From: Deltaproteobacteria bacterium
GTDB taxonomy: Bacteria; Desulfobacterota; Desulfovibrionia; Desulfovibrionales; Desulfomicrobiaceae
Assembly (NCBI GenBank): GCA_009929795.1
Contig: RZZR01000002.1
Location: 1 to 64,000 of the forward strand
Direction of reading: 5' to 3'
DNA length: 64,000 nucleotides
Shown here: one piece after another, positions 71 through 55,507 of the stretch
Layout of the letters: each line of letters starts with the position of its first letter
Position numbering within the stretch: the stretch's first letter is position 1
The notes under the pieces: model-generated
What the model was told of the DNA's origin: nothing
Seen by the model: only the letters and a program-made list of their open reading frames with translations
Database searches by the model: none
Translations under genes and position numbers: made by a program

Positions 71-3000
71 ATGCCCAGAAAAAACCCACGCTCTTCAAAG
101 ATCCCTACCCCCGCAGGCAAATCGACCGGCCCAACCCCACAAGCCCCGGCCCTGTATGTGGCCGTGGGGGCCTCGGCCGGAGGCCTGGAGGCCATCGAGG
201 CCTTTTTCTCGGGCATGGCCTCGGAAAGCGGCCTGGCCTTCATCGTCATCCAGCACCTCTCGCCGGACTACAAGAGCCTGATGGTCGAGATCCTGTCCAA
301 GAAAACCCGGATGAAGGTCCAGCGGGCCGAAGACGGCATGGTCGTCCTGCCGGACAACATCTACCTGATTCCACCCAAGAAGAACCTGACCATCTTCCAC
401 GGCAAGCTGATCTTGAACGACCAGGAACACGTCAAGGGGGCCATCAATCTGCCCATCGACATCTTCCTCCGCTCTCTGGCCGAGGACCAGGGCGAAAAAG
501 CCGTGGCCGTCATTCTGTCCGGATCGGGCAGCGACGGCATGCGCGGCGTCCGGGCCGTCAAGGAGTTCGGCGGCATGGCCATGGTCCAGAGCGAAGAGTC
601 GGCCAAGTTCGACAGCATGCCCCGGGCGGCCATCTCCACCGGCCTAGTCGACTTTGTCCTCCCTCCCGACGAAATGCCGGACCGTCTCCTGTCCTTTGCC
701 AAGCACCCCTTTGTGGCCAAGGCCGAGCGGTCCGAAACCGCCATCAGCGACGAGGACGCCCTGAGCCGGATCTTTTCCATGCTCCGGGAAAAGTTCAAGG
801 TCGACTTCACCTTTTATAAGCCGAGCACCATCACCCGACGCATCGAACGCCGCATGTCCATCAACCGGATCGACGAGATCAGGGACTACGTGGCCTATCT
901 CCAGAAGTATCCGGCCGAAGCGGCCACCCTGTTCCGGGAATTCCTCATTGGCGTGACCCGGTTCTTTCGGGACCGCGAGGTCTTTGATCTCTTGAAGCAG
1001 AAATGGCTGGCCGAAATCCTGGACAGAGCCGAAAATAGGGAAACCCGATTCTGGGTGGCCGGGTGTTCCACCGGCGAGGAAGCCTACACCCTGGCCATCC
1101 TGGCCAAGGAGTGCATGCAGGCCTCGGGGAATTTCCGCGACCTCAAGATCTTCGCCACGGACATCGACCGGGACGCCGTCCAGTTCGCCGCCAACGGGGT
1201 CTATCCCGACAGCATCGCCGCCGACATTCCCGAGGGCCTGCTGACCAAATACTTCTACAAGCGTCAGGACAGCTACCAGATCGCCCGCAACATCCGGGAG
1301 ATGGTCGTGTTTGCCCAGCACAACCTGATCAAGGATCCGCCCTTCACCAACATCGACCTCATCTCCTGCCGCAACCTGCTCATCTACCTCCAGCCGCTCC
1401 TGCAGCGCAAGGTTTTCGAATTCTTCAATTTCTCCCTGAACCTGCGGGGCCTTTTGATTCTGGGCACCAGCGAAACCACCGGTGAGATGAGCGACTATTT
1501 CGAGAGCCTGGATCACAAATGCAAGATCTTCCGGACCAAGGGGCTGGTCAAGCATGTCAAGGACGGGATCATGCTTCCCCACGCCCCGGAAGTCCGGTAC
1601 CGCGACCTTGGCGGCCGTTTCACCGGGCTGCGCAGGGAGCAACAGGGCGCAGGCGATCGGGTTCTGGAGCGTTTTGTCGACGTCCTGACCGAGGACTACG
1701 TCGATCTGGCCGTGATCGTGAACGAGCAGATGGAGATCGTCCACATCATCGGCGACACCGAGGGCTTCTTCAAGGTCCCCTCGGGCAAGCTCTCCATGGA
1801 CATTTCCAAGATGGCGGCCAAGGACCTGGCCATACCCCTGTCCACGGGTATCCAAAAGGTCTTCCGCAAGCAGGAGCCACTGCATTTCACCAACGTCCGC
1901 ATCCGTCATCAGGACGGCCACAGAATGATCGACCTGCGGATCAAGCCCCTGCCCCAAAAAAAAGGCCAGGAGGCCTTGGCGGCCGTCTTCCTCGAGGAAG
2001 TCAGGAAGATGAAACCGTCGGATCCCGCCCAGGCCGTGCAGACCTACGACCTGTCCCGCGAGGCCGAGCAGCGGATCAAGGACCTGGAGCAGGAGCTGCA
2101 ATTCACCCGGGAAAACCTCCAGGCCACGGTGGAGGAATTGGAAACGGCCAACGAGGAGCTCCAGGCCACCAACGAGGAACTCCTGGCCAGCAACGAGGAA
2201 TTGCAGTCCACCAACGAGGAACTCCAGTCCACCAACGAGGAACTCTATTCGGTCAACTCCGAGTACCAGTCCAAGATCATGGAGTTGAGCGAACTCCACA
2301 ACGACGTGGACAACCTGCTCCGGGCCAGCCTCATCGGCCAGTTGCTCCTGGACGAGAACCTGGAGATACGTCGCTTTTCGCCCCAGCTCGTGGAGATCTT
2401 CAAGCTCCTGGACAGCGACGTCGGCCGGCCCCTGACCCACATTTCCCATCACCTGGCCAATGTCGACCCGATCAAGATCATCGAGGAGGTCCAGAAAACC
2501 GGACGCATGTCCGAACACGAGGTCCGGACCATGGACGGCCGATGGCACCTCATGCGCGTCGTCCCCTATGCCGTGGGCCCCAAGATATTTTCCGGGGCCA
2601 TGGTTTCCTTTGTGGACATCACCAGGATCAAGCAGGCCGAGGAAGACCTGCGGGCCAGCGAGGAAAAGCACCGCGGCCTGTTCGAGACCCTGCCCCTTGG
2701 CGTGGTCTACCATCTGGCCGACGGCACGATCTTTTCGGCCAACCCGGCGGCCGAACGGATTCTGGGCCTGACCCAGGACCAGTTGAAGGGCAAGACCTCC
2801 ATGGACCCGCGCTGGAAAATGATCGACGAAAAGGGGGCCAACGTTCCCGGAACCGAACACCCGTCGTCCATTGCCCTGCGGACCGGACGGATCGTCGGCC
2901 CGGTCATCCGGGCCGTGTTCCATCCCGACAGAAACGACTACATCTGGCTGTCCATCACGGCCACGCCCCTTTTCAGGCCCGGGGAGAAAATCCCCTATCA

Positions 3001-3817
3001 GGCCTACGCCATATTCGATGACATCACCGAAAAACGGCGCGTCGCCCAGGACTACCAGACCCTGTTCAAGGAAATGCTGAACGGGTTCGCCGTCCACGCC
3101 GTCATCTGCGACAACATTGGAAAACCCGTCGATTACCGTTTTCTGGCCGTGAACCCGGCCTTTGAACGAATGACCGGTTTGCGGGCCGAAGACATCGTCG
3201 GCCGGACGGTTCTCCAGGTTTTGCCCAATACCGAGCCCTATTGGATCGAGGCCTTTGGCCAAGTGGCCCTGACCGGCGAGGCCAAGACCTTTGACAACTA
3301 CGCCCGGGAACAGAACAAGCATTTCCGGGTCACGGCCTTCAGGCCGGCTCCGGACCAGTTCGCCTGCATCTTCGCCGACATCACCGAACAGAAGATGGCC
3401 GAGGAGGAAGTCAAGGCCGCCCATGACCGGCTCCTGACCGTTTTGGACAGCATCAACGCCCTCATCTACGTGGCCGACATGGAGACCCATGAAATCCTGT
3501 TCATGAACAAATACGGCCAGAACGACTATGGAGACGGTACCGGGCAGAAATGCTGGAAGGTGCTCCAGAACGGTTCCGGCCCATGCGATTTCTGCACCAA
3601 CGACAAGCTGGTGGATGCCGAAGGCAAACCCACCGGCGAGTACAGCTGGGAATTCCACAATCCCGTAACGGATCGGTGGTACGCATGTTTCGATCGGGCC
3701 ATACAATGGGTCGACGGACGGCTGGTGCGGCTGGAAAGCGCCTTTGATATCACCGACCGCAAGCGTTCCAAACGCGACGGCCGGGGTTCCGACCAGGAGG
3801 GTGACCATGAGCGATGA
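71..3817 (+). CDS. CheB-CheR-PAS hybrid chemotaxis-type sensor
   Basis: A 1248-residue fusion protein. Residues about 28-215 are a CheB-type methylesterase: GASAGG with Ser35, His62 in QHLSPD and Asp155 in GSGSDGMRG fit the catalytic triad. There is no receiver domain in front. Residues about 230-490 are a CheR-type SAM-dependent methyltransferase ([16 protein letters not shown]). A long coiled coil built of NEELQST heptads follows (about 668-745), then three or four PAS domains to the end, the last with a Cys-rich loop (CWKVLQ...CDFC). In this family the CheB/CheR parts often act with a sensor kinase instead of a flagellar chemoreceptor. The end overlaps the next gene, a PAS histidine kinase, by 11 bases, so the pair is probably one signalling unit. 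No transmembrane segment is visible, so it is likely cytoplasmic. Confidence 0.93.
2150..2254 (+). repeat. Five 21-base tandem repeats encoding a coiled coil
   Basis: Five in-frame 21-base units start at 2150, 2171, 2192, 2213 and 2234, each beginning AACGAGGA. They encode heptads of the form NEELQST inside the CheB-CheR-PAS protein. The repeats keep the frame and form the centre of the dimerising linker between the CheR and PAS parts. They are a coding repeat and not a mobile or CRISPR element. Confidence 0.85.
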
Positions 3818-13244: not shown

Positions 13245-15143
13245 ATGCAGAAGGAAATGAGCACCCTGGCGACCATACCGGGGGTCCATGGTGTCATGGC
13301 CAGGAGCAGGGACGGAAAAATCGTGGATTTCGGCCTGAAGGACTATCTCGGACACGATGGCCTCAGATCGCTGCGGAGACTCATAGCCAAATTGCCAGAT
13401 CGTCCGAAATCAAGACATCGCCTGCGGTTCGCCCCGATCCCGTGGTCCGGGGTCAACGGCTTGATCGCCCTGTTCAACGACGGGGAACTTTTGGTGCTCA
13501 CCTCCCCGGAAGCGGATCAAAAGGCCATCGCCAAGTCCATTGAAGCCCATGAAGCCATCTTGTCGATGTTCTTCGTTCCAAAGGACGATGATACGCTTGA
13601 GATACAGTCATCCAAATTTGATCCGACCCCAAAAAACCGCCGGCTACCACGGGCATTGCTGGCCATGTTCTTGGGAATGATCGTCGTCGGAGGCGCTTGG
13701 ATGATGAACCTTCCCACGATGCTCTTGTCGAACACCGTCGGGAGCGGAACGGCCCAGGCCTTGCCCGAATCCGAGGGACAGGGTCCCACGCCCTCGGGAC
13801 CGCCGCGAACCATATTGCGAATTCAAGGCTCAAACACCATCGGAGCCAAACTTGCTCCAGAACTTTCCAATGCCTATCTGGACGCCATTGGTGCCAGGGA
13901 CATTCGGGTAGAACCCGGCAAGAAACCCGAAGAATGTGCCGTTCTCGCCAGCCATGCCAACGGTGAACAGATCCGGATCGATATCGAAGCCCACGGATCA
14001 TCGACGGCCTTCAAAGGCCTCGGCCAAGCAAGCTGCGATATCGGCATGGCCTCGCGACCGATAAAAAATAAGGAAATGGAAATACTGAACAGGGATGGCC
14101 TGATGAACGACTCGGGCTTCGAGCATGTTTTGGGTCTGGACGGTATTGCCGTCATCGTCCATCCGGCAAATGAAATAGAGGCGTTGACCATTGATCAAAT
14201 CGCCGCCATTTTTTCCGATGAAGTGCATGACTGGAGCCAAATTCCCGAAAGCGGCATCCAGGGCCAGGTTGTCATCGCCGCCAGGGACGAAAAATCCGGC
14301 ACATGGGAACTGTTCAAGGAAAAGGTGCTCCAAGACAAGACGCTCTCCCCTCTGGCCGAACGAATAGAGGATAGCCGGGCCCTATCCGGAATGGTTTCCA
14401 GAAACATGCGGGCCATCGGTTTCATCGGCCTGCCCTATATCCTCTCCTCCAAGGCGGTGGCCGTGGCCGAAGGGTCGAACAAGCCCGTGTTCCCGACACC
14501 ATTCACCGTGGCCACCGAAGACTACCCCCTAGCCCGAAGACTTTTTCTCTACACCCTTGACGATCCTTCGAGTGAGCATGCCCGACCCTTCCTCGAGTTT
14601 GCCCTGAGCAAAAATGGACAGCACCATGTCGAGCAGACCGGATTCGTTCCCCTGACCATAAGCGAACACGTCATTTCTCCTCCGGACGAGTCGCCCGAAG
14701 CGTTCTTCAAGCTGGCACGGTCCTCCTCGCGTCTCTCGATGGCCTTTCGCTTCAAGCCGGGATCTGATCGTTTGGACAGCAGGGGCCAAAAAGATGTCGA
14801 ACGCCTCGTGGAATTTCTGAACACTCATCAAAACCGTGGCCGATCATTGACTCTTGTCGGTTTTGCCGACTCCATCGGCGCCGACGAAGTCAACGACAGC
14901 CTCTCGTTGAGCCGAGCGCAGTCCGTAGCCCAAACCTTGATTTCTCGCGGGCTTCCCATTCACTCCGTTCTTGGGTTGGGCAGCAGGCTCCCGGTTGCCG
15001 ACAACGCCACCCAAAACGGCAGGGAAAAGAACAGACGGGTCGAGGTCTGGGTCGATCATCGGCCTCAGGCCCTGCTCGATCCCAAACTGGAATCGGCGCA
15101 TGAAAAGGTGCTCCATGACAAAAACAAAAATGTGTCGGCATGA
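13245..15143 (+). CDS. Membrane-anchored PstS-like/OmpA fusion protein
   Basis: A 632-residue protein in four parts. Residues 1-110 form a soluble domain (TIPGVHGVMARSRDGKIVDF ... GELLVLTS) with the pattern of Roadblock/LC7 proteins, an uncertain call. A single transmembrane helix lies at about 136-155 (ALLAMFLGMIVVGGAWMM). Residues about 190-475 are a PstS-type periplasmic phosphate-binding fold (RIQGSNTIGAKLAPELSNAY, DIGMASRPIK, IAARDEKSGTWELF). Residues about 500-605 are an OmpA-like peptidoglycan-binding domain with NGREKNRRVEVWV. Topology would put the N-terminus in the cytoplasm and the binding/OmpA parts in the periplasm. GGAGG lies before the ATG. It is transcribed divergently from the GAK operon, hinting at a phosphate-sensing link. 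Confidence 0.85.
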   Translation: MQKEMSTLATIPGVHGVMARSRDGKIVDFGLKDYLGHDGLRSLRRLIAKLPDRPKSRHRLRFAPIPWSGVNGLIALFNDGELLVLTSPEADQKAIAKSIEAHEAILSMFFVPKDDDTLEIQSSKFDPTPKNRRLPRALLAMFLGMIVVGGAWMMNLPTMLLSNTVGSGTAQALPESEGQGPTPSGPPRTILRIQGSNTIGAKLAPELSNAYLDAIGARDIRVEPGKKPEECAVLASHANGEQIRIDIEAHGSSTAFKGLGQASCDIGMASRPIKNKEMEILNRDGLMNDSGFEHVLGLDGIAVIVHPANEIEALTIDQIAAIFSDEVHDWSQIPESGIQGQVVIAARDEKSGTWELFKEKVLQDKTLSPLAERIEDSRALSGMVSRNMRAIGFIGLPYILSSKAVAVAEGSNKPVFPTPFTVATEDYPLARRLFLYTLDDPSSEHARPFLEFALSKNGQHHVEQTGFVPLTISEHVISPPDESPEAFFKLARSSSRLSMAFRFKPGSDRLDSRGQKDVERLVEFLNTHQNRGRSLTLVGFADSIGADEVNDSLSLSRAQSVAQTLISRGLPIHSVLGLGSRLPVADNATQNGREKNRRVEVWVDHRPQALLDPKLESAHEKVLHDKNKNVSA

Positions 15144-36155: not shown

Positions 36156-37505
36156 TCAGAGAATGTAGCGGGAAAGATCCCGGTCTTCGCGGACGTCCTG
36201 TAAACGCTCCTCGACAAAGGCCCGGTCCACTACCTGGGACCCTCCTCCCCGCTCCGGAGCCTCGAAGGACACTTCGGAGAGGATCTTTTCTAGGATGGTG
36301 TACAATCGCCTGGCCCCGATGTTCTCGGTCTCGTCGTTGATCTGCTGGGCAAAGTCAGCGATGGCCAGAAGTCCGTCCTCCGTAAAACTCAGATCCAGGC
36401 CCTCGGTCTTCATCAAAGCCTGGTACTGGACGGTCAGGGCGTTCTGGGGCTCGGTCAGAATGCGGTAGAACTCTTCCCGGTTCAGGGCCTCCAGTTCAAC
36501 CCGGAGCGGAAACCGGCCCTGGAGTTCAGGGATGAGATCCGAAGGCTTGGCGTAGTGAAAGGCCCCGGCGGCGATGAACAGAATGTGATTCGTGGAGACC
36601 ATCCCGTACTTGGTGTTCACCACACAGCCCTCCACCACCGGCAGCAGATCTCGCTGAACCCCTTCCCGGGACACATCGTGGTTATTGCCCGATGAATGGG
36701 TGGTCGTGCAGACCTTGTCGATCTCGTCCAAAAAAATGATCCCATGTTCCTCGACCCTGTGTTTGGCCTCCTCCACGACCCGGTCCATGTCCACCAGACG
36801 TTCACTCTCCTGCTGGATTAAGATGTCCATGGCCTCCTTGACCGTGACCTTTCGGGTCTTTTTCCTTTTGGGAAAGACCTTGGACATCATGTCCTGAATC
36901 TGCCCCTCCATGCCCTCCATGCCCGGAATGGCCATGACGTCGATCTTGGACCGGGACTCCTCGACATGGACCTCGACCTTGCGCCCGTCCAATTGCCCCT
37001 TTCTAAGCATGTCCCTGAGTTTTTCCCGAGTGTCCTGGGCGTGGGAAACTGGCTCGAAGGGCGAAACGGTCTCCTTGCCCGACAGAGGCTTCCGGGGCAG
37101 AAGCAGATCAAGAAGCCGCTCCTCGGCGGCGGCCTCGGCCTTGACCTGCACGGCCTCGACCTGCTCTTGGCGGACCATGTTCACCCCGATCTCCATGAGA
37201 TCCCGGATCATGGACTCCACATCACGGCCGACATAGCCTACCTCGGTGAACTTGGTAGCCTCGACCTTGTAAAACGGAGCCCCGGCTAGCCGGGACAAGC
37301 GACGGGCGATCTCGGTCTTGCCCACCCCAGTGGGCCCCATCATGATGATGTTCTTGGGGATGATCTCCTCCCGGAGGCTTTCGTCCAGTTGCTGTCGCCG
37401 CCAGCGGGTGCGAAGGGCCAGGGCCACCATTTTCTTGGCATTTTTCTGTCCGATGATGAACTTGTCCAGCTCAGACACTATTTCTCTGGGCGTCAGAGTG
37501 CTCAT
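36156..37505 (-). CDS. hslU: HslUV protease ATPase subunit
   Basis: A 449-residue AAA+ unfoldase. Walker [14 protein letters not shown] and Walker [11 protein letters not shown] are intact. The middle I-domain is present, [12 protein letters not shown] marks the sensor region, and the C-terminal LSRYIL tail matches the docking peptide that inserts into HslV. It overlaps hslV by four bases, giving a coupled cytoplasmic protease complex. Confidence 0.96.
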
Positions 37506-38068
37506 GTCGCCCCCTGCTCTTTGGAGAGGACCTCCACGGTCAGATTCTCATTGGTGAAGACGCAGATTTCCGCAGCGATGGCCATGGAAGAACGGACGAT
37601 CTCCTCGTTGCTGAGGCCAGTATGTCGGAGAAGGGCCCTGGCCGAGGCCAGGGCGTAGGCCCCCCCGGAGCCGATGGCCCCGACCCCGTCGTCTGGCTCA
37701 ATGACATCCCCGGTTCCAGACAGAATCAGGATGGTGTCCGCGTCAGCCACCAGAAGCAGCGCCTCGAGCCTGCGCAGGTATTTGTCCATACGCCAAGTCT
37801 TGGCCATTTCCACGCTGGCCCGGACCAGGTTGCCCCGAAATTCTTCCAGCTTGGCCTCGAATCGCTCGAACAGGGTGAAGGCGTCGGCCGTGGCACCGGC
37901 GAATCCGGCCAGAATACGATCCTTGTGCAATCGCCGAACCTTCTTGGCCCTGTGTTTCATGACCACGCTCTGGCCCAGGGTCACCTGGCCGTCACCGGCC
38001 ATGGCCACACCGGCCTCGGTCTTCACGGCCAGAATGGTGGTTCCTCGTAATGAATCAAGCACTATCAT
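37502..38068 (-). CDS. hslV: HslUV protease peptidase subunit
   Basis: A 188-residue proteasome-like peptidase. The catalytic Thr is Thr10 in [20 protein letters not shown], so a short propeptide must be removed, as in ClpQ-type proteins. [20 protein letters not shown] is the usual conserved core. GAGGAG directly abuts the ATG at 38068, while a GTG at 38062 is six bases from it, so translation may really begin at the GTG and give a propeptide two residues shorter. The exported Cache gene ends 38 bases upstream. Confidence 0.95.
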
Positions 38069-38106
38069 CTCCTCGTTGTCTCGTGGTAACTCTTTGCCTC
38101 ATATGG

Positions 38107-39603
38107 CTAGAGAATCGATTCCATCGCCCGGCCGAGGTTCACGCCATGATCGAGACCCTGATGGCGAATCTGGCCTTCATCCGTTTTCCAGGTGACCAGC
38201 ACTTCCGGAGCGACGTAGTCAAGGGACATGACGCCTGCTTTGGCCCCGGCTTCGCAGAGGACATTAATCTGGGAAAGAAGAAACCCCTGAAGGAGTAGCC
38301 TGTCCACGATGTTCCCTAAACATCTGGTGTGGGGTGCGACGACCACCAGAACCACTGCATGCTTCTCGCAGGGATAGAGATCGAAACTCTGCATCCTCTT
38401 GGTGATTTGCGACAATAAATCCGTCGCTTCGCCCCCGCAAGTCCTGTCCAGGGGCGTAATGTGGCCCAGATAGCCGAATCGGCCCGGCACAAAGGCTCCG
38501 AACCCAGTACAGGTCGAGATGCCGGTGGTCTGCAGCAATTCACCGCTGGTGGCCTTCAAGAATTCGTCCATTTCCACTCGCAGCACGGCCCGGTCATTGC
38601 CGCATGCCCCCTGAGCCACGGCTTCCTTGGATCTCCTACTCGTCACAATTTTTTGCAACTCGTCGATGTAATAATGGCCGTGGGCCTGATATTCCCTGGT
38701 GACAATCTCGTCCCTGTCCACCTTGGCCACCACCAGCCACCGGGTGCCCATAAACTCGAAGACCTCGAAGGAGGTCAGGGCCCTGACGCCCCGATAGTCC
38801 GTCACTTCAATGCCTCCGCTTCCCTGCTTGAACTTGGCCTTGATGTTTTTGTCATCCAGGTGCTTTTCAAGAACGGTCGATTCGCTACAGAAATACGAAT
38901 CGGTCAACATGAGCCCCTGCCGATTCACCAGGAAGGTCTCTCCGGTAGACCAGGCGCCCTCGGTCCCGGAGAACAGGGAATTGATCTTGGCTCCAGCGCA
39001 GCGCAGAGCCAACCAACCCAGAAGCCGTCCGTTTCTGGAAATCGGCTCGACGAAAAAGGCGGCCACTTCGGCCGTGGGCTCTCTCCTGTGGAAGTCGACG
39101 AAAACTCCGGTGGTCGGCTTTCTGGCTAGGCAATTGCCCAGGGGAGAATCGGGGTCCACCACCTGGGCCGGAGCCTCCCCGGTACTCGTCCGCTTGCGGA
39201 TGGAATGGGCAAGTCTGCCCTCGAGGGTCAGAAACATGATGTCCTGAAAGGCATAATACCTTTCCAGGGCGTAGGCGTCGACTTGGGACCGGAGCGTGGA
39301 GACGTTCGCAGCCAGGGATTCCGGAAACTCGTTCCTGGCCTCTAGATACTGCCGACTGATATCGAAGAAGGCGACCAAATATTCATCGACGGCGGCCTCC
39401 CTGGCTAAGCCACGAAGGCGTCCCATGAGACGAGCCAGGCCGTCGGACTTTTCCTGCCGGATGTAGTCGAGACCGATGAAGGCCCAGTCAAGGGGATTCC
39501 GGGCGGCCGAGGCCGCAGGAGCGAGTCCCAGCCCCAGGCCGTAAAGGCTCAACGCTCCGAGAAAAAACCACCGAAAACGAGCCTGGCCAATCATCACGAT
39601 CAC
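38107..39603 (-). CDS. Exported Cache-like sensor with CheD-like C-terminal domain
   Basis: A 498-residue protein with a GTG start at 39603 behind AGGAGG. The N-terminus FRWFFLGALSLYGLGLGLAP ending in ASA looks like a cleavable signal peptide; no second transmembrane segment is seen, so the whole protein should be periplasmic. Residues about 40-330 have the helix-plus-PAS-like layout of double Cache ligand-binding domains (GTRWLVVAKVDRDEIV is a typical end). Residues about 345-480 (TTGISTCTGFGAFVPGRFGY, LGHITPLDR, VVVAPHTRCLGNIVDRLL) resemble the CheD fold with its Cys and His, an uncertain call. Without a kinase or methyl-accepting part its output is unknown. Confidence 0.65.
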   Translation of the reverse strand: MIVMIGQARFRWFFLGALSLYGLGLGLAPAASAARNPLDWAFIGLDYIRQEKSDGLARLMGRLRGLAREAAVDEYLVAFFDISRQYLEARNEFPESLAANVSTLRSQVDAYALERYYAFQDIMFLTLEGRLAHSIRKRTSTGEAPAQVVDPDSPLGNCLARKPTTGVFVDFHRREPTAEVAAFFVEPISRNGRLLGWLALRCAGAKINSLFSGTEGAWSTGETFLVNRQGLMLTDSYFCSESTVLEKHLDDKNIKAKFKQGSGGIEVTDYRGVRALTSFEVFEFMGTRWLVVAKVDRDEIVTREYQAHGHYYIDELQKIVTSRRSKEAVAQGACGNDRAVLRVEMDEFLKATSGELLQTTGISTCTGFGAFVPGRFGYLGHITPLDRTCGGEATDLLSQITKRMQSFDLYPCEKHAVVLVVVAPHTRCLGNIVDRLLLQGFLLSQINVLCEAGAKAGVMSLDYVAPEVLVTWKTDEGQIRHQGLDHGVNLGRAMESIL

Positions 39604-50885: not shown

Positions 50886-53063
50886 TCAGGCTCCCAAGGG
50901 TCCGGCCAAGGTCTGAATCGGTTCGCCGACACATGGCGTTTCAGAACCGACATATGAATCCATGATCCGGCCCAACCGGTCGATGGTGGTCGCCAGATCG
51001 GCCATGACCCGGTCCGTCTTCTGCATCCTCTGCCCGGTGTCCCTGGCGATACCGCGAATTGTCGAGAGTCCCTCGTTCACTTGGATGGCCATTTGCTGTT
51101 CTTGGACCAGGGCCGAGGCAATGGAGGCAACCTCACTCTCGGCCCGAGTAGTCAGTTCAACGATCTCTTCCAGCCGTTGATTGGAGGCTGCCGCCAGAGT
51201 CGTCATCTTGGTCACGGTTGACGAAGCCTCGTCCATCTTCTGCTTGTGCTCGCCGACCCGGGATTGAATGGAACGGACGCTCTCCTCCACCTTGCTGGTG
51301 GCGGCCACGGTCCGTTCTGCCAATTTACGCACCTCGTCGGCCACCACGGCGAATCCCCGGCCGGATTCTCCTGCCCTGGCGGCCTCGATGGCCGCGTTCA
51401 AGGCCAGGAGATTGGTTTGGTCGGCGATGTCGTTGATCAGATTGATCACCCCGCCGATGTTCCGTGCTTCGTTGTTCAGTTCGTCCAAATCGGATCGCAG
51501 CTGGTCGCTGATCTCCTGAACCCTGGTCATGAACCGTACGCTGTGTCCGACGGTATCCCGGCCTTCATCGGCCTTGAGATGAACATCGCTCGAATTTTCA
51601 GCCGCCATGGTCGCGGCCTCGGACACCGCGTCCACGGCCATGACCAGCTCGTCCATCCATCTCGTCAGATCACGGATGCAGGCTCTCTGTTGGTCGGCTC
51701 CCGTGCGAGCTGAATCCAAGGAGGCAAAAACCTGCTTGGCGTGTTCCTGACTTTCCTCGGCCAGTTCCTCGGCTTTTGCCGACATGTCCATCAATCCTTG
51801 AACGATGTTTTCGAGTTTCTGCTGATTGGCCGTGGCCAACAAGGCCGCCGCTTCGGCCTGCTGGGCGTGGCTGTCGGCCTCCTTGGCTTTCTGGTCGGCC
51901 TGGATGATTTTCGATTCGAGGGAGTCGACCATTCTGGAAATGGCGTCGAACACGGCAAAAAATTCAGTTCTGAACCGGCCCTGAATCTGCTTTTTCAAGT
52001 CTCCTCCGGCCACGGCGACCGAGTACCTCTGAAGCAAGGCCATGGGTCCGAACAATTCTCGCCGAAGAAAGAGAAACATGGCGACAACTGCCATGGCCAC
52101 AAGCAAAGCCGTTGAAAGAGCTAGGACAGTATTCAAATCTTCGGCCGGGGCCATCACCTCGTTTTCGTCCACCATGGCCACAAGATTCCAAGTCTCAGTT
52201 CCGAATGGGATGTCGACATCGGAGGCCAGCCGTCGGCCATCCGGTCCATCAAGGGTATACAGAAACCCCGGAGCATGCCCTTGAGCCAAGGCTTGAACGA
52301 TGTCGTCGACAACGTCCATAGAAACGTCCTGCCCCGATCCAAGCACCCCGGCCGAACCGAGCAGAATGGTTCTCCCTGTCTGCCCCAGGCCTTCGTTCAT
52401 GCCCATCATCTTGTTCAAGTCGGTATTGGAAACCGACAGAAAGGCCACCCCGGACGTCTCCCCGGTGTGGCTGAAAATCGGAGCCCCGACAAAGGCCACA
52501 GGCTCGTCGCCATATACGGCATAACGATTAAAATCGGCCACGGCCTCCTGTCCGGTCATGCAGGCCTTCCAGGCCTCGCCCAAAGGCGTGCCGGCCATGG
52601 CCCCAATGTCGAGATCATGTCCGAGATCATCCAATCCCTTGGCCGTCAGAAGGATTCGACCGCCGTCATCGACGATCAAAACGTCCCGGTAGCCGAGACG
52701 TTCGACATAGGCATTGAGTACCGGGTCGAGATAGGCGCGGAGATCCTGAAAAACCGGGTTGGCCACATCGGCCCGCAGGCCCTTGGCCGAACCCATAAAA
52801 TGGTCTCTGAGCATGACCACGATGTTGTAGACCTCCTTGGAAGCCGCCAAGTGGGAGGCCTCCCGGACCCAGACGGAAGCCATGTTCATCAGGGCCATCC
52901 GTTTGACGTCCCGGACAGCCAACAATTTTTCCCCGGCCTGCCGAACCATACTTTCCCGGGCCGATTCGGCACTGAACCAGCCCAGAACGGCCACCGGGAC
53001 CACAACGATCCCGACACAGAATAACAGAATCATGGTTCGCAGTGAAAGAAACCGTTTGGTCAT
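50886..53063 (-). CDS. Methyl-accepting chemotaxis protein, Cache type
   Basis: A 725-residue chemoreceptor from the ATG at 53063 (GGAGAGGTG upstream). TM1 ([20 protein letters not shown]) and TM2 ([20 protein letters not shown], about residues 310-335) flank a roughly 280-residue periplasmic double-Cache domain. HAMP, a coiled coil and the signalling hairpin [20 protein letters not shown] with [17 protein letters not shown] follow. The ligand is unknown. No chemotaxis signalling genes are adjacent, and it lies directly upstream of the Pho-box promoter. Confidence 0.94.
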
Positions 53064-53157
53064 GGCATCACCTCTCCTTATGCTTTTGCTGACGAGCATA
53101 GGATTCTCGAGGTGACGAACGGATGACGGGAAAGAGACGATTTCGGGAAAGGAAGGG

Positions 53158-54396
53158 CTACAGCCCTCGGCCCCAGATAAGGGCCTGCTTTTGAATGGAC
53201 ACGTTCATATCCCACTGCAGGTATTCAGCGATATTGTCGGAAAATGGCACGTGGACCAAGCGAGCGGATCGAAGTTTGAACCTGTTCTCCTTCACCAGGG
53301 GAGCCACCTGTCTCTTGTTGGGCGCCAGGTGGGCCAAAACCATGGGCGAGGCCTGAAAGGCCTCCCGGGCCGGCAGGGTGACCGGAAAAAACGAAGCATC
53401 GATCGGGACCCTTCCAGGCCGAGAATCCCCCCGAAACAGGGTCAACTGTGCGGCCAGACGGAGAAAAAGCGGCGGGTTGACCTTGAAGGCCGGAATTCTG
53501 AAGACCAAAGGCCGGGCTTCGTGCTCCGGCCTGACGACCATGGGCAGATTGGTCAGACGGATCAGGTCTGCGAAGGTTTCAAGGGCCAAGTCCGAGGCCG
53601 TCAGGGTTACCTCCCAGACCGGCAGACAGAGGTCACCTGAACCGGGCTCGGCCAGAAAGCTGAGGCCTCCGGCCTGCAAGCCTCCTCGATGGGGGATGTT
53701 CACGGTTTGGCATTGTCGGCAAACCAGGGCTAAGCTATCGGCGGGCCCTTCCAAATCCCATCCGCAGACCGGGCACATGGCCGGCAAGAAACCGGGAACC
53801 GGCAGAGAATCTCGGCTGCCTGCCCTGGAAAGGACCAAGGCCAGATCGGGATCGGCCTCCCGTCCGGAAAGGGCGTCGAGAACAGTGTCGCCTCGAACGT
53901 CCATGGGGGCGTGGACCAGGCTGACGATGTCTCCGATCAGGGATTGGGGAAGAGACACCCGGTCGGAAACATCAGGACCGGCCCCGGGATGGCCGACGGT
54001 CAGGATGGTCCTCACGGCCTCAAGTCTCAGCTCCGGTCGCAGGAACCGACCCGGAATGCCCGGCTCGGCGAATCGCAGCCGCATGGCCTGGGCCCTCAGG
54101 CCCAGCGAGACCGGAAGCCCCGGAAACGGGACCGCGGCCAGGCTGGTGTCCACCAGACGGTGCTCGACCCGATGGACGTCGTTGATGACCAGGGCCATGC
54201 CTCGCACTCGCCAATACGGGACATAGACGAGTTCGCCCCGAACCTGATGCCTTGGCTCGATTAAAAGGCTGGGATGGGCACCGGCATCAATGAAATGACG
54301 GACTTGACAGAACCGGCAGTGAAAAACCCGGGTCGTTTCCGGCATGGTCACCGGCGCCCCGCATTGGGGGCATTGGTATCTGAGTTCAGCCCTCAA
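53158..54396 (-). CDS. Zinc-ribbon protein of unknown function, partner of the SPFH protein
   Basis: A 412-residue protein with a TTG start at 54396 inside the last codons of the SPFH gene (11-base overlap). The N-terminus has a zinc ribbon ([10 protein letters not shown] ... [10 protein letters not shown]) and the middle a second one ([10 protein letters not shown] ... [10 protein letters not shown]). Between them a region containing [10 protein letters not shown] resembles the conserved blocks of zinc-ribbon proteins whose role is to process or present membrane components, but I recognise no family. The overlap implies it works with the SPFH protein. The start is less certain than for its neighbours, but the first Cys at residue 9 supports it. 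Confidence 0.75.
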
Positions 54397-55507
54397 TGCG
54401 TCCGCCGCAAGCGTTGCAGAAGCTGGCCCCGGGTAAATTGTCTGTTCCGCAGGCCGGGCATCTCACCTGGCGCGGCCCCTCGGTCACGGCCTGGCCACAG
54501 CGGGAGCAAAACCGGGCATTGGGCGGCAAGTTCTTGCCGCAACCTTGGCATTGGTGGAAAACCATGACCTGATGGCCGCAAAAGGGGCAGAATTGGGCGT
54601 CTTCAGGAACCTGTCGGGAACAATCCGGGCAGGTCGTGAATTCGACCGCGGCCTTGCCTTGGGCCTGGAAAATCTGGCCCATCATGCCCGGAAGCATGAG
54701 GCCCATGCCCATGCCCATGCCTCCCCCGGCCTCGCCCGGATTCTCGGCCGCTTTTTCCAGGGCCATGGCCGCCTTGAGGCGCATGAGATCGTTTAGATTG
54801 TCGAACACGGCCAGCTTTGAGCGGTCGTCGATGGCCTGCTGGACTTCGGGGGGCGGAGTGATGGAGTTGATGTAGAGATGGGTCAGGGCGATGCCGAAAT
54901 GGGAGAAATCCTCCCGAAGGCGCTGTCTCAGCCCGTCGGACCATTGGTCATAGCGGCCCGGAAGATCGAGAACCGTGTCGAGATGTTCACCCATGTAATC
55001 GTTTAGCCGGGAGACGATGACCTTGCCCAGATAGTCCTCGACCTCGTCCGTGGTCACCCGACCCATGGTTCCGGCCATGGTGTTGATAAAGAGCAGGGGC
55101 TGGACGATCCTGATATTGTAGACGCCGAAAGCTCGCAGACGAATGAGACCGAGTTCCTTGTCCCGAAAGGCCACCGGTTCCCGGGTTCCCCATTTGAGGT
55201 TGGGGAAAACCTTCATGTTCAAGAAATAGACCTCGGCCCGGAGCGGGCTGGTCATTCCCCAGGGGACCGAAAGGATCTTGGTCAGGATGGGAATGTTGGC
55301 TGTCTTCAAGGTATGCCGCCCCGGGGGGAAGGCGTGGACCGCTTTGCCGTTGTAGAAAAAGACCCCCACTTGGCTGGTTCTGGCGATGAGTTGGGCCCCG
55401 AACTTGATCTCCCCGGACCCCTCGGCTGGAATCCGCTTCAGAATCTCCCGCCCGGTTTCGTCGAACCATTCGATGACTTCCAGAAAAATGACGTTGTTCG
55501 TGCCCAT
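54386..55507 (-). CDS. SPFH/band-7 protein with C-terminal zinc ribbons
   Basis: A 373-residue protein. Residues about 10-220 are an SPFH domain of the YdjL/YdjP-like class (FFYNGKAVHAFPPGRHTLKT, then YFLNMKVFPNLKWGTREPVA). A Gly/Met-rich linker (EAGGGMGMGMGLMLPGMMGQ) leads to three CxxC...CxxC zinc ribbons: CPDC/CPFC, CQGC/CSRC and CPAC/CNAC. No transmembrane segment is visible. Homologues are thought to organise membrane or stress complexes; the target is unknown. Confidence 0.88.
   Translation of the reverse strand: MGTNNVIFLEVIEWFDETGREILKRIPAEGSGEIKFGAQLIARTSQVGVFFYNGKAVHAFPPGRHTLKTANIPILTKILSVPWGMTSPLRAEVYFLNMKVFPNLKWGTREPVAFRDKELGLIRLRAFGVYNIRIVQPLLFINTMAGTMGRVTTDEVEDYLGKVIVSRLNDYMGEHLDTVLDLPGRYDQWSDGLRQRLREDFSHFGIALTHLYINSITPPPEVQQAIDDRSKLAVFDNLNDLMRLKAAMALEKAAENPGEAGGGMGMGMGLMLPGMMGQIFQAQGKAAVEFTTCPDCSRQVPEDAQFCPFCGHQVMVFHQCQGCGKNLPPNARFCSRCGQAVTEGPRQVRCPACGTDNLPGASFCNACGGRIEG

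Follow-up and report, generated by a model that had tools for sequence, protein, structure and literature searches.

Overview of the protein

The window, meaning the whole stretch of 64,000 nucleotides analysed here, carries a gene for a protein of 498 aa (38107..39603 (-)) in which a signal peptide and a dCache sensor domain are followed by a domain with the predicted fold of CheD. This domain retains the Thr-Cys-His triad of CheD throughout a family of 26 aligned sequences, and part of the family is encoded directly beside chemoreceptor (MCP) genes. Our preferred reading, for which we would give about an even chance, is that the protein is exported and serves a chemosensory pathway as an accessory, with a CheD-fold domain that acts on a partner chemoreceptor.

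Gene structure and export

The open reading frame starts with GTG, and an in-frame ATG is located three codons downstream. At the N-terminus, two Arg residues precede a hydrophobic stretch (residues ~13-27) and an AASA/ARN-type site. According to hydrophobicity, charge and the -3/-1 rule, residues 1-33 (39505..39603 (-)) represent a signal peptide with an estimated cleavage site. The initial annotation regarded this segment as the only hydrophobic stretch, and no second one was found in the window protein with 19-residue Kyte-Doolittle windows at a threshold of 1.6, the best later window reaching 1.38. The same pattern is observed across the family: all 21 proteins tested possess a single N-terminal hydrophobic segment with no other window of at least 1.6, and a net positive charge lies ahead of it in 20 of them, the exception (L038) having a trimmed start. 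One segment with positive charge before it indicates an N-in, C-out topology, whether cleaved or uncleaved, and not the retained anchor with a cytoplasmic C-terminus that the annotation had named as its counter-case.

Additionally, a canonical lipobox was matched by pattern in the relative L091. In five planctomycete proteins the hydrophobic segment ends in LFGC (three) or NTGC (two), with a Cys that appears lipobox-like by eye. These lipoprotein-like relatives support the predicted extracytoplasmic place of the family. A lipobox pattern match inside the hydrophobic segment of L039 was taken as chance. L044 is without a clear cleavage site directly after its segment; its anchor may be retained, and its body would still lie outside. 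PMC4822843 describes Cache domains as sensors outside the cell. Both domains of the window protein are thus predicted to lie outside the cytoplasm, as had been proposed.

A gap of 38 bases separates the end of the gene from hslV, and hslU comes next, all on one strand (37502-38107 (-)). It may be co-transcribed with hslVU in the window, and the arrangement was seen beside the studied gene in the window only.

The dCache sensor domain

Residues ~35-306 (38686..39501 (-)) are assigned to a dCache sensor domain. The Pfam match is weak: dCache_1 (PF02743) covers residues 161-293 with an E value of 1.2e-4 and 22.2 bits against a cut-off of 45. Among eight relatives scanned, this cut-off was passed by five (L037, L158, L161, L090 and L087) and missed by L091, L044 and L045. 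NCBIfam gave no match at all for the window protein. The full-length model (pLDDT 82.5, pTM 0.76) shows the dCache fold over residues ~35-306, with 2p7j as the best match and Z up to 19.5 over 245 residues, and the Cache-like sensor noticed earlier is therefore confirmed at the level of predicted structure. The fold is common to the dCache sensors of chemoreceptors and kinases. Unlike those sensors, the domain is not followed by a transmembrane helix, and its output is the CheD-fold domain.

Predicted fold of the C-terminal domain

The C-terminal domain (residues 337-498; 38110..38595 (-)) was modelled with AF2 from an alignment of 11 family members, comprising the window protein and related loci, and the model has a mean pLDDT of 94.3 and a pTM of 0.90. 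The best match among solved structures is the CheD of T. maritima, 2f9z_C (Foldseek E 8.3e-8, TM 0.67/0.70), to which VIA-align gives Z 15.9 and 2.1 Å over 133 residues. The next matches are NTAN1 (Z up to 11.0), YlmD/YfiH (up to 10.4), BLF1 (8.7) and CNF1 (7.7). The 26 best rows consist of CheD, NTAN1, YfiH/YlmD, BLF1 and CNF1 (Z 7.3-15.9), and the first row outside the superfamily has Z 4.0. In the full-length model CheD is again matched, for residues 337-484, with Z 15.1. The structural comparison suggested by the initial annotation thus returned CheD and not an unrelated fold, and the domain is predicted from the models to have the alpha-beta-beta sandwich fold of the CNF1/YfiH-like cysteine hydrolase superfamily.

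Sequence comparison alone gave a different picture. No match to the Pfam CheD family (PF03975) appears for the window protein up to E 1, or for the eight relatives scanned up to E 0.01, and NCBIfam and PDB sequence searches returned no CheD match. Local hhalign of the family against CheD was not significant (P 0.042 with 11 against 15 sequences, 0.2 with 26 against 32); in its best alignment the Thr, Cys and His of the family sit on those of CheD. The global mode aligned nothing useful. As no sequence-only route gave a significant match, the CheD link rests on the predicted fold and the motif. The C-terminal model also matched predicted giant-virus proteins with a CheD fold in BFVD (Mimiviridae sp. 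ChoanoV1, Tupanvirus, Moumouvirus and Fadolivirus), one of which carries the name CheD.

CheD acts in the cytoplasm. With this chemoreceptor glutamine deamidase the window protein shares the predicted fold, the Thr-Cys-His triad at nearly equal spacing and, in part of its family, gene linkage to MCPs. Unlike CheD, it is predicted to be exported, is fused to a dCache domain and is without a Pfam CheD match. CheD itself is encoded elsewhere in the window's genome, in two copies. NTAN1, the N-terminal asparagine amidohydrolase (6a0e), shares the fold (Z 11.0) and a Cys-His dyad but differs, according to PMC7022378, in having Ser as the third residue and an appended C-terminal region. YfiH/YlmD/PgeF (DUF152) share the fold at Z about 8-10; the compared chains are without a Cache domain, and YfiH has zinc in the active site according to the same paper. 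The catalytic domains of BLF1 and CNF1 possess the superfamily fold and differ by a weaker match, eukaryotic substrates and no relation in context.

The active-site residues

All 26 family members carry the pattern T-x5-C-x15/16-H-x4-D. In the window protein the triad is spaced T-x5-C-x15-H and consists of Thr359 (codon ACC, 38527..38529 (-)), Cys365 (TGT, 38509..38511 (-)), which is the predicted nucleophile, and His381 (CAC, 38461..38463 (-)); Asp386 (GAC, 38446..38448 (-)) is likewise invariant. The three triad residues are the equivalents of Thr21, Cys27 and His44, which form the triad of CheD according to PMC7022378. The spacing in CheD is T-x5-C-x16-H, as read from an alignment of one CheD of the window's genome with 2f9z. 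These four residues are among 14 invariant columns of 160 scored in the 26 sequences, and the chance that three given columns are all invariant is ~5e-4, a value to be read with the columns not being independent.

The Thr position is occupied by Thr in only 15 of 32 true CheD sequences of relatives, so the family is stricter here than CheD. PMC7022378 treats Thr as the variable member of the triad, in line with this count.

The peptide patterns that retrieved ten loci on GTDB contigs contained the Thr and Cys, and none of the patterns contained His381. Searches free of Thr/Cys patterns recovered 17 of the 25 homologues (L004-L006, L018, L086-L091, L158-L162, L036 and L040). L036 and L040 were found both by pattern and by the pattern-free genome search, and L161 and L162 are nearly identical. 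All 17 keep Thr, Cys and His. Planctomycete members retain the triad though neighbouring residues differ, with GPCT in place of STCT. His425 ('APH') was dropped as a candidate catalytic residue, being absent from L006, L018 and L088.

It can be seen that the Cys- and His-containing CheD-like motifs first noticed in the protein are real in substance, with the triad codons checked. The earlier choice between a new periplasmic role and a resemblance that is only structural has shifted. Conservation of the triad in 26/26 argues against the latter, and the former gains the receptor context described below. Catalytic activity of the family protein, as an amidase or deamidase, appears somewhat more probable than its absence.

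Distribution of the family

The same architecture exists elsewhere, as the initial annotation had asked, and the family alignment contains 26 full-length sequences, that is, the window protein and 25 homologues. Among 61 genomes searched, five yielded another six homologues of full length, with identities of 38-45%. The ten loci on GTDB contigs, two of them on contigs already found in that search, carry the labels Desulfohalobiaceae, Desulfobacterales, Desulfobacteraceae, Desulfopila, Desulfotignum, Phycisphaerae and, for three bins, 'uncultured bacterium'. The family was present in 5/395 genomes of a sample of the phylum, the window's genome counted, and in 5/169 genomes sampled from the phylum of the Phycisphaerae genome (G733). 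The family is sparse. The carrier G727 contains two copies, the second of them divergent.

No stand-alone CheD-fold domains of the family were seen in the genomes searched, where matches lie in frames of ~500 aa or more. A weak stand-alone candidate in G195 (E 5.4e-4, a 260-aa frame) overlaps a methyltransferase-like ORF and was dismissed by eye. Viral contigs searched for the family yielded none confirmed, and plasmids yielded 10 records with the Cache part only. No description of an exported or Cache-fused CheD was found among the titles and abstracts returned by searches of an open-access library.

Linkage to chemoreceptor genes

At 8/26 loci an MCP gene is the immediate same-strand neighbour of the family gene (L036, L040, L086, L087, L088, L089, L090 and L037). 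The sensor of the adjoining MCP is HBM-like in seven of these (L036, L040 and L086-L090) and dCache_2 in L037. Only ~0.23 MCP-adjacent loci of 26 would be expected (P ~4e-11). This estimate assumes a density of one gene per kb and uses MCP counts from nine genomes, which have 4 to 27 MCPs each, with the highest MCP rate seen assigned to the 15 loci of uncounted genomes. An 11-locus version of the test was set aside because most of its genomes had been chosen after adjacency was seen. The Pfam signalling domain was detected in 7/8 of the adjoining MCPs; in L040 the contig ends before that domain, and this neighbour, with no Pfam match, was called an MCP by its sensor, which is 60% identical to that of L036. 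On the partner MCPs HBM (PF16591) scored 21.4-23.8 bits against a cut-off of 29.8 in three of four scanned and was not matched in L087. The label 'HBM-like' is used since these sensors fall below the cut-off. HBM-like modules are repeated in the partner MCPs, in numbers that differ between receptors, and every module has a motif resembling RV.NFKAQA..D (L036 4551-7673, L089 10677-13427 and L090 5513-8215).

Other chemosensory genes are also located at these loci. In L036 and L040 the order is CheW, family gene, MCP, with CheW recognised by eye. Hpt, CheW and CheB proteins surround the family gene in L087, and a CheW-like gene is nearby in L090 (by eye). In L038 an MCP is one gene away, with a TPR protein (1237-2748) in between. 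In that genome a similar ORF also comes after the HBM-like MCP of a different contig (L128 3327-3715).

The other 17/26 loci, including that of the window, have no MCP within one gene, as judged by eye on contigs of which some are short. None of the nine flanking genes scanned with Pfam outside the MCP-adjacent loci is an MCP.

Several other genes of the window were recorded. A 1248-aa protein (71-3817 (+)) combines a CheB methylesterase, a CheR methyltransferase and several PAS domains. A 737-aa MCP is encoded at 50886-53099 (-), in which Pfam sees the signalling domain only, the sensor part having no match at E up to 1e-5. A phosphate-binding-protein-like domain (PBP_like_2) is fused to an OmpA domain at 13245-15143 (+), and an SPFH/Band 7 domain is followed by double zinc ribbons at 54386-55507 (-).

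Co-occurrence with one receptor type

A receptor profile was built from the seven gene-adjacent HBM-like sensors and applied with a threshold of 200 bits. Sensors of at least 200 bits were found in 16/18 carrier genomes (213-456 bits); the carriers G727 and G729 had none. Among carriers outside the profile 10/12 match, or 10/16 once four planctomycete carriers are added. In the phylum sample (395 genomes, taken as the same set in both searches) such a sensor occurs in 5/5 carriers and in 4/390 non-carriers (G611, G381, G514 and G352), and 50/390 non-carriers have a weaker match (E up to 1e-3). In the phylum of G733 it is found in 1/5 carriers (G733 itself, 253 bits) and 0/164 others; the four other planctomycete carriers, which form a divergent, lipoprotein-like branch, are without a sensor match of at least 200 bits. 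Fisher tests, which ignore kinship, gave 2e-15 for 10/12 carriers and 1e-9 for 6/8 in Desulfobacterota.

In the window's genome the HBM-like sensor (229.7 bits) lies at G000:C48:5619-6413, on another contig, and in this genome the two are paired through homology alone. Distances in the family and in the receptors, compared over 16 pairs, show a moderate Mantel correlation of 0.46, with 3/5000 permutations as high and the species tree uncorrected. In the case of the window's genome, family protein and receptor have different nearest neighbours, which falls short of strict co-inheritance. A functional partnership of the family protein with this receptor type is likely in the main clade, and the branch without the HBM-like receptor must have another partner or role.

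Candidate substrate sites

Substrate sites were surveyed in 22 sensors, 17 from carriers and 5 from non-carriers, with the G000 and G732 sensors left out. At the 'MYQMRGYG' site the carrier sensors comprise six with Q, four with E and seven with A, and the non-carrier sensors three with A, one with E and one with G. The 'NFKAQ' site has Q in 15 and L in 2 carriers, and Q in all 5 non-carriers. The G000 sensor itself has E at the former and Q at the latter. At one sensor position Q is found in 6/7 gene-adjacent receptors and E in the seventh, and non-adjacent receptors have E or A. No Gln or Asn separating carrier from non-carrier receptors was found among the 22 sensors, and the Q/E alternation at the 'MYQMRGYG' site is a lead only. 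That the receptor outer domain is the substrate seems rather doubtful to us.

Proposed mechanism and rival explanations

An HBM-type sensor is a helical bundle. Docking on this outer bundle is a natural inference, since CheD itself acts on alpha-helices of MCPs, in which it deamidates Gln, as stated in PMC7022378. According to the mechanism proposed here, the dCache domain would bind a small ligand in the periplasm, and the CheD-fold domain with its triad would dock on the helical periplasmic HBM-like sensor of the partner chemoreceptor. The docked domain would then set the signalling state of the receptor, most probably through hydrolysis of a Gln or Asn side-chain amide, either in the receptor or in a receptor-bound protein.

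The strongest rival, which we judge to be unlikely overall, is a non-catalytic adaptor in which Cache senses the ligand and the CheD fold only docks on the helical bundle of the receptor. TorT with TorS, a periplasmic binding protein acting through a membrane sensor, is comparable. The same linkage and co-occurrence data fit such an adaptor, and it needs no receptor Gln, in agreement with the survey above in which no diagnostic one appeared. However, docking alone does not require Thr, Cys and His to be invariant in 26/26 when only 14/160 columns are. Less probable still is an envelope amidase or deamidase, YfiH/PgeF- or NTAN1-like, acting on a non-receptor target (a peptidoglycan fragment, a peptide or another envelope protein), with receptor linkage confined to one branch. 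In its favour, NTAN1, YlmD and YfiH/PgeF rank next after CheD in the structural comparison, the family protein occurs without the receptor type in G729 and in planctomycete carriers, and the flanking genes scanned outside the MCP-adjacent loci are diverse. Against it stand the tie to one receptor type in the main clade, by both gene adjacency and co-occurrence, and a fold nearer to CheD (Z 15.9) than to YfiH or NTAN1 (Z 10-11). Ordinary cytoplasmic CheD activity behind a retained N-terminal anchor is very improbable, for it finds a foothold in the missing cleavage site of L044 but is opposed by the N-in, C-out pattern (single segment in 21/21, positive charge before it in 20/21), the lipobox of L091 and the extracellular nature of Cache sensors as described in PMC4822843.

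Implications for chemoreceptor signalling

The family had previously shown only a Cache match in Pfam and now has a testable hypothesis. In the textbook picture, covalent modification of chemoreceptors takes place on cytoplasmic helices. In the most specific form of our preferred reading, which is tentative and on balance improbable, a ligand-gated exported CheD-type deamidase would edit the helical sensor that a dedicated chemoreceptor exposes to the periplasm, providing a second, extracytoplasmic layer of tuning or ligand memory. If this is true, receptors would be modified from outside, besides cytoplasmic methylation and deamidation, and a soluble sensor could write a lasting mark on a receptor.
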